Assembly (NCBI GenBank): GCA_026985675.1
Contig: JALSPZ010000158.1
Location: 1-38,261 of the forward strand
DNA: 38,261 nucleotides
From: Flavobacteriales bacterium
GTDB lineage: Bacteria > Bacteroidota > Bacteroidia > Flavobacteriales > Flavobacteriaceae
Direction of reading: 5' to 3'
Shown: positions 34,613 through 36,120 of the stretch, piece after piece
Numbering within the stretch: position 1 is the first letter of the stretch
Layout: every line of letters begins with the position of its first letter
The notes under the pieces: model-generated
Told to the model about the DNA's origin: nothing
The model's input: only the letters and a program-made list of their open reading frames with translations
Databases searched by the model: none
Made by a program: the position numbers and the translations under genes

Positions 34613-34882
34613 TTATTTTCTAAGTCCTAATTCTTTAATAATTTTACGATATCTTTCTATATCGTTGTTTTTCAAGTAGTTTAATAGACTACGTCTTTTT
34701 CCAACTAGTTTAACCAAAGCTTTTTCGGTACTGTAGTCATGTTTGTTCTTTTTCAAATGTTCAGTCAGATGTTTAATTCTAAACGTAAACAATGCAATTT
34801 GTCCTTCGGGAGAACCCGTATCTGTTTCGGATTTTCCGTACTTAGCGAAAATTTCTTTTTTAATTTCTGGTGTTAAATACAT
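34613..34882 (-). CDS. rpsO: 30S ribosomal protein S15
   Basis: 89 residues, the standard length. Family landmarks are [17 protein letters not shown]-x-x-H-L-K-x-x-K-H-D-Y-S-T and [12 protein letters not shown]. It binds 16S rRNA in the central domain early in 30S assembly. The minus-strand promoter at 34925-34954 precedes it by about 42 bases. In many bacteria S15 represses its own mRNA; no such leader structure is clear here. Confidence 0.97.
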
Positions 34883-34924
34883 GCCAATATTGTTTTAATG
34901 ATTATTATGTATGTTTTCAAGCTG

Positions 34925-34954
34925 CAAAAATACTATTTTTATTTTGATTAACAA
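34925..34954 (-). promoter_or_regulatory. Complete Bacteroidetes-type promoter (TTG-N19-TATTTTTG) for rpsO
   Basis: On the minus strand TTG (34954-34952), then 19 bases, then TATTTTTG (34932-34925): the full -33/-7 consensus with correct spacing, 42 bases ahead of the rpsO start. This is the best promoter in the window. Confidence 0.75.
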
Positions 34955-34983
34955 TACTTTGTTAAAAAAAGTTTTAAGAAAAA

Positions 34984-35338
34984 TCAATCCTGTCCTAAAT
35001 AAATTTAATTTTTACTTTTTCCATCGATGAACATTTCGACTTTGCTCAATGGTAACAAAAAATCTAGGCTGACGAGTATTTTTCTAAATTTTTTGTTCAT
35101 TACACTAAACTGTCTGAACTCGGTTGAACATTTTTTCTAAATATAACATTAACATAACCTCAAACAGCAGACAGTTTTACGTTCCATTCACTTCAAATTT
35201 TACGAAAAATCCTCATATGCCAATAAGGATAGAGTCATTAGCCTGTGAATTTAATCCCATAGCGCTTAAAAATAAACTCAATTCGTTATAAATCAAAACA
35301 TTACTTTTGTTTTAAAAAAATATTTAGGACGGAATTAA
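34984..35338. mobile_element. Candidate MITE or insertion-sequence remnant with 18-bp imperfect inverted ends
   Basis: This fills most of the 536-base gene-free gap between rpsO and the gene at 35419. TCAATCCTGTCCTAAATA (34984-35001) is matched at 15 of 18 positions by the reverse complement of 35321-35338, all differences being transitions. GAAAAA lies directly outside both ends (34978-34983 and 35339-35344), a possible target duplication, though in AT-rich DNA this can be chance. Inside, AAACTGTCTG (35107-35116) is inverted at 35168-35177. No protein-coding frame is apparent, so any mobility would depend on a transposase elsewhere. A structured RNA or a decayed gene is the alternative. Confidence 0.4.
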
Positions 35339-35418
35339 GAAAAAATTTTTAAACAAATAATAAGCGTAATTTGTATAATCAATTGTTTTTTTTTAATTTT
35401 AAACAAAAATATTTTTTT

Positions 35419-36120
35419 ATGGAAAAGTCAAGAGAAATTATAGGAAATATTATTAAAGAAGAATCCATCAGTTTAGTCAACCATCACAAATTGCAGGATA
35501 CGGTTGTTATCAATATTGATCGCCCTTTCCCCGGACTTCACGGTTTTGATTTTGATATAATCTCCAAGCCCCGATCCGTGATTATTGCTACTTCGGAACT
35601 ATATTCTTTTGCTAAAATTTTACGAAAAGCTAAAAAAATCAATGCAACTACTGATTTTGATATCAATGCTTCTTTTGCAAAGATAAAATCCGGAAAACAA
35701 ATTATTTATGGTATAAGAATTAAAGGTTTGGATTCTTATGAACAAATTCCGGAATTACAAAAACTACTACAACATTATGGTTTTCAGCTATTAAAAAAGA
35801 AAAAAATATCTACTGATAAGCCTGTTTCCATCAAAATAAGTAAATTTTTCCATATTGAAAAAATAGAAGATAATATTTATAAAGACACCTGCATAAACTC
35901 AATGTATTTTATTGAAATTCCACATTATTTATCTTGGGAGCAATTCAAAGAAATCACCTATAAAATTAAAAACAATATCAGTAATAACAATTATGATGTA
36001 GCCAAAGGTTTATTTTATAAAGACGATACCGTTAAAGATATTGTCAGAATTTACAAACCCAATATATCGAAAGAACTTTTGGAAGAAATAAAAAATAGGT
36101 ATTATAAAGAATTAATATAA
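35419..36120 (+). CDS. Unknown 233-residue protein paired with the LigD-type polymerase
   Basis: ATG 35419 (M-E-K-S-R-E-I-I-G-N-I-I-K-E-E); an in-frame start 48 bases earlier would add a low-complexity Phe/Lys leader and is rejected. No signal peptide, membrane span, Cys cluster or domain that I recognise. It appears as a soluble alpha/beta protein with N-terminal D-T-V-V-I-N-I-D-R-P-F-P-G-L-H-G, an alternating Lys-rich middle (L-L-K-K-K-K-I-S) and a helical C-terminus (E-L-L-E-E-I-K-N-R-Y-Y-K-E-L-I). Its stop is one base ahead of the polymerase ATG, so the pair is surely co-transcribed and probably co-functional. Base use is AT-rich like its neighbours. Inference: a DNA- or polymerase-associated accessory factor; nothing in the sequence proves it. 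Confidence 0.8.
   Translation: MEKSREIIGNIIKEESISLVNHHKLQDTVVINIDRPFPGLHGFDFDIISKPRSVIIATSELYSFAKILRKAKKINATTDFDINASFAKIKSGKQIIYGIRIKGLDSYEQIPELQKLLQHYGFQLLKKKKISTDKPVSIKISKFFHIEKIEDNIYKDTCINSMYFIEIPHYLSWEQFKEITYKIKNNISNNNYDVAKGLFYKDDTVKDIVRIYKPNISKELLEEIKNRYYKELI

Follow-up and report, generated by a model that had tools for sequence, protein, structure and literature searches.

What is the non-coding DNA that separates rpsO from a primase-polymerase gene pair in the window (the whole 38,261-nucleotide stretch of a Flavobacteriales contig that was analysed)? The initial annotation had described a segment with 18-bp inverted ends at this position and had proposed a non-autonomous transposable element or an IS remnant. 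On one side of the segment lies rpsO (34613-34882, minus strand; PF00312) with its S15-Flavobacteria ribosomal protein leader (34880..34932, minus strand; Rfam match, RF03161) and a putative promoter-like site, TTG-N19-TATTTTTG (34925..34954, minus strand), located by a pattern scan. On the other side, a plus-strand gene (35419-36120) encodes a 233-aa protein that has no Pfam match and precedes the gene for a LigD-type primase-polymerase (PF21686, 6.1e-72). rpsO and the 233-aa gene diverge from an AT-rich promoter region, within which the element sits, 30 bp from the promoter-like site of rpsO. Its placement had been described correctly, with the promoter-like site just outside the element and the LigD-type gene beyond the plus-strand gene, and the segment is indeed non-coding, as any ORF in it is shorter than 60 aa.

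Comparison of ends and duplications across 16 copies places the whole element at 34985..35337 (353 bp), because in complete copies the duplications sit outside CAAT.../...ATTG. The inverted ends are real, but the limits originally drawn, 34984 and 35338, each hold one flank base; the 15 matches in 18 end positions, with transitions as the only differences, had been counted correctly. The left terminal inverted repeat, CAATCCTGTCCTAAATA (34985..35001, plus strand), matches the family motif exactly, and the right one, TAATTCCGTCCTAAATA on the minus strand (35321..35337), departs from it at the outermost base. The GAAAAA reported on both sides is present and belongs to a slightly decayed 9-bp target duplication recognized by flank comparison, with AAGAAAAAT on the left (34976..34984) and AGAAAAAAT on the right (35338..35346). 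Without a gap these agree at 7/9 positions; alternatively, if the last G of the element was lost, the pair reads AAGAAAAAT and AAGAAAAAAT, with one extra A.

The search for further copies proposed earlier, run with the segment on the genome that holds the window (G000, a draft of 2.13 Mb in 359 contigs), returned at least 52 matching stretches at no fewer than some 30 loci. The best full-length copies show 88-93% identity among the matches listed, and numerous copies lie close to contig ends, as expected because repeats break assembly. The family ends carry CAATYCYGTCCTAAATA in inverted orientation; allowing up to two mismatches, the genome holds 26 forward and 25 reverse occurrences of this motif, compared with 6 and 1 for a reversed control pattern. 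A perfect 9-bp target duplication flanks 10 of the 16 copies with both ends assembled (TTTTAAAAT, TTGTCAAAT, CAATTGAAG, TTCCGTTAT, GTTAAATAC, ATTCAAAAA, TTTTTATAA, TTTATAAAC, GTGCCGTAT and GGACGGAAT). When the left flank of one copy was compared with the right flank of another, none of 240 pairs matched at 9/9 positions. The copy with GGACGGAAT (L009 754-1104) has apparently landed in the right end of another MITE copy.

We also searched two other genomes of the genus for empty sites, using the joined flanks of four copies from which the element and one 9-mer had been removed. For one copy (L014) the alignment runs through the join without the element in both sister genomes, and for a second (L023) in one of them; a third (L031) gave a gapped alignment around the join and the fourth (L027) an ambiguous one. 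Uninterrupted alleles consequently exist at the level of the family, for two copies other than that in the window, and neither of the outcomes named beforehand as refuting mobility, a single copy or the lack of an empty-site allele, arose for the family. At the window locus itself gene order differs in the sister genome G001, where rpsO adjoins another gene, recognized from its protein and which we take to encode inorganic pyrophosphatase, instead of the LigD-type pair; in the sister genome G002 rpsO gave no match. It could be argued that the segment is ordinary intergenic sequence with inverted repeats that arose by chance, as short inverted pairs do easily in an AT-rich region. However, the multiple copies, precise ends, perfect target duplications and empty sites refute this reading, to which we give practically no credence.

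A likely parent for the ends was found outside the genus. Over its first 24 bases the element is identical to IS ends at 17 places in G012, a genome of another genus in the same family, and also to IS ends in G196 and G047. In G090, from another genus, these bases differ at one position and make up the left end of an IS of 1.34 kb (L148 1501-2837). The protein that this IS encodes (P0001, of which 405 residues were read) matches both DDE_Tnp_1, a broad model (PF01609, 4.4e-30), and DUF4372 (PF14294, 1.2e-24). IS copies in G090, G143 and G058 are bounded by 9-bp duplications (ATTGATTAT, ATTCAGAAT, ATACAAAAT, ATTAACAAT and GAAATAAAC), the length also seen for the MITE and within the range of about 8-13 bp of the IS4 family (PMC2266710). 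Duplications in that family are ~10 bp, being 8-10 bp in the subgroup IS4Sa and 9 bp in IS10 (PMC2266710). The DDE_Tnp_1 transposase, ends starting with CA and 9-bp duplications all resemble the IS4 family (PMC2266710), to which the likely parent would belong. The check for a transposase with matching ends was successful in so far as the IS in G090 carries one, in another genus, but the own 359-contig draft has no match to the G090 transposase and no PF01609 protein whatsoever. The enzyme is accordingly lost, unassembled or different in this lineage.

The G090 IS and the MITE share sequence at their ends only. Prokaryotic MITEs of type II likewise share little beyond the ends with an IS (PMC10969869). 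The two alternatives originally offered for the segment fare differently on this point: several copies, defined ends, duplications, empty sites and IS-like ends bear out a non-autonomous element, but the interior is not IS sequence, as an IS remnant would require. We regard it as very unlikely that the MITE simply arose from an IS by internal deletion (a type I MITE), with leftover IS sequence inside. Although its ends match an IS4-family element, the interior of the G090 IS is the transposase gene beside different subterminal sequence, and many genomes carry the interior of the MITE without such ends.

Over half of the element is a folded repeat module, hereafter the core (35052..35249, plus strand; 201.8 bits with covariance model R1). 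R1 was derived by aligning 18 sequences drawn from four genomes. Of 121 family genomes searched with it, 38 hold the module; the own genome gives 20 matches, and no other gives more than 12. With strict filters, a second model (R2, 25 diverse sequences) finds it in 20/297 genomes of the phylum, other families and classes included; one of the phylum matches (L242) resembles coding sequence and is probably false. Element positions 69-139 match repeats in G016 that lack IS4-type ends, and within the own genome three core copies (L040, L041 and L042) also lack them, which shows that the module can exist independently of the MITE. The composite of IS4-type ends and core was found in G000 and in G002, of the same genus. 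An exact scan of a named-genome collection with the left end and first interior bases, which may lack entries for the own genome or its nearest relatives, returned only three contigs, belonging to one Flavobacteriales metagenome-assembled genome. As far as we have seen, the MITE is restricted to its own genus, whereas the module is widespread.

The core had no match above the gathering score in Rfam 15, and permissive Rfam thresholds applied to five copy-bearing loci gave chance matches only, the S15 leader aside. Phage and plasmid collections contained no match to the core of the window, nor did viral contigs searched by exact pattern. In the open-access literature we found neither the core nor the MITE described.

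A second element of ~150-160 bp, whose ends read TGTCTTGT...ACAAGACA, is nested in several MITE copies at a common core site (L014 962-1113; also L012, L015, L017, L018, L027, L030 and L032). In some copies (L028, L074, L080, L025 and L034) the palindrome CCCGATAGCTATCGGG, or a variant, takes the place of the core stretch AAAAATCTAGG or is added to it. Core copies are clustered in some genomes (L203-L208, L212 and L246-L249), often near polysaccharide or methionine/sulphur genes. A regulatory link to these gene clusters was considered and rejected; since orientation relative to the genes varies and other copies lie elsewhere, we assign no regulatory role to the core.

Covariation shows that the core contains a conserved long imperfect hairpin, and the signal is strong. 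In the window sequence this hairpin spans 35067..35221 (plus strand), closed by GGC/GCC (35067-35069 with 35219-35221), and its main arms pair 35073-35084 with 35204-35215, 35086-35091 with 35195-35200, and 35107-35116 with 35168-35177. The inner inverted pair picked out in the initial annotation is one arm pair within this larger structure. Across the 25-sequence alignment, which was built from sequence alone, 92.9% of cells pair, and 23 of the 27 pairs show changes on both sides. Double-changed cells number 127, compared with 34.9 ± 4.5 in shuffles (0/500 reach the observed count). Sliding the partners by 1-3 columns leaves 16-32 such cells against the 127, a comparison in which the structure is somewhat favoured over the slid versions because it came from the same alignment.

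Upstream of the long hairpin, most genomes carry a small hairpin, for example TTACTTTTTTC-CATTGAT-GAAAAAAGTAA, the right arm of which is replaced in the window copy and in many other MITE copies. By eye, its loop reads CTTGAT, CTTGAC or CTTGAA where the downstream sequence reads ATCAAG, GTCAAG or TTCAAG, respectively, which suggests that loop and downstream sequence may pair as a pseudoknot. A hammerhead-like reading of the core motif CTGANGA was dropped, as relatives carry CTTACGA.

Such a structure raises the question of whether the core acts as RNA or as DNA. A non-coding RNA gene or cis-regulatory RNA carried by the MITE is conceivable, and we hold it as a tentative option on the less probable side. 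The strong covariation together with conserved unpaired stretches, the possible loop-to-downstream pseudoknot and a T-rich run after the long hairpin on the minus strand would all fit an RNA. However, a scan of MITE and core copies found no flavobacterial promoter pattern inside them, the copies lie in varying orientation to the genes around them, and the core has no match in Rfam. Nor is there an excess of wobble pairs: of the 627 paired cells, 11 are G-U as read on the plus strand and 19 are A-C, the combination that becomes G-U when the minus strand is read, counts that stand without a known-RNA control for comparison. On the wobble counts and the promoter scan we lean towards a DNA-level role for the core, and our guess is that some protein recognizes the module as folded DNA.

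If the core acts as DNA, a Y1 transposase (REP-associated or IS200-like) might spread it in single-stranded form. This would be in keeping with the small and large hairpins and with the end-free copies, which show no inverted termini. Core-bearing genomes (G000, G001, G062 and G118) nevertheless contain no Y1_Tnp match, and Y1_Tnp is present in some genomes without core matches, so that we consider such spread improbable. The core does resemble REP/RAYT repeats and other palindromic repeats derived from IS200/IS605 in being dispersed, intergenic and hairpin-forming, but it is much longer than these and Y1 transposases do not track it. Another dispersed repeat, in G012 (L096 1400-2618), lies beside truncated ORFs, which by eye we take to resemble REP-associated transposase. 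Integron attC sites are imperfect hairpins in which structure is conserved above sequence and the tip is variable. In these three respects the core is similar to them; by eye, we saw no RYYYAAC/GTTRRRY boxes or cassette arrays in the core clusters of G062, G114, G071, G016, G670 and G611.

The core, taken as the small hairpin with loop-to-downstream pairing plus the long covarying hairpin, could be an undescribed, phylum-wide, self-spreading structured element with a mobilising enzyme of its own, which IS4-type ends have captured to give the composite MITE. We regard this as a serious possibility, though somewhat short of an even chance. No recurrently adjacent protein was seen among the core clusters inspected by eye.

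Taken as a whole, the segment is very probably a MITE that an IS4-family DDE transposase moves in trans, with an interior that represents a resident structured repeat captured between IS4-type ends. A transposase of this type (DDE_Tnp_1 with N-terminal DUF4372) would bind the 17-bp ends, excise the element and insert it through a 9-bp staggered cut; the target in the window would have been the AT-rich promoter region from which rpsO and the gene preceding the LigD-type primase-polymerase diverge. Since the assembly holds no such enzyme, we infer both that the chemistry is cut-and-paste and which enzyme acts in this lineage. As for the origin of the composite, the resident structured repeat, which also spreads without IS4-type ends, would have become flanked by such ends, and the combination of ends and module would then have been amplified. 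We infer capture followed by amplification because core copies without ends exist, and the order would be core first, ends later.

The element has the features listed for prokaryotic MITEs: a length in the range of 50-500 bp, AT-richness, an intergenic position, inverted ends, target duplications, a folded interior and no transposase gene (PMC10969869). It differs from them (PMC10969869) in that its interior is a module that widely exists alone and in that the parent IS is absent from the assembly. The class of IS-derived MITEs is already known; the composite with a phylum-wide module is a variant for which we found no description in Rfam 15 or the open-access literature. As a MITE the element is ordinary, although its ends and the length of its duplication are now defined and a likely parent has been found. 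Its cargo weighs more: a repeat of ~200 nt with strong structural covariation, found in about a third of the sampled genomes of the family and beyond, which can now be searched for by covariance model. Overall, the composite suggests one path by which a structured repeat acquires a second way to spread.
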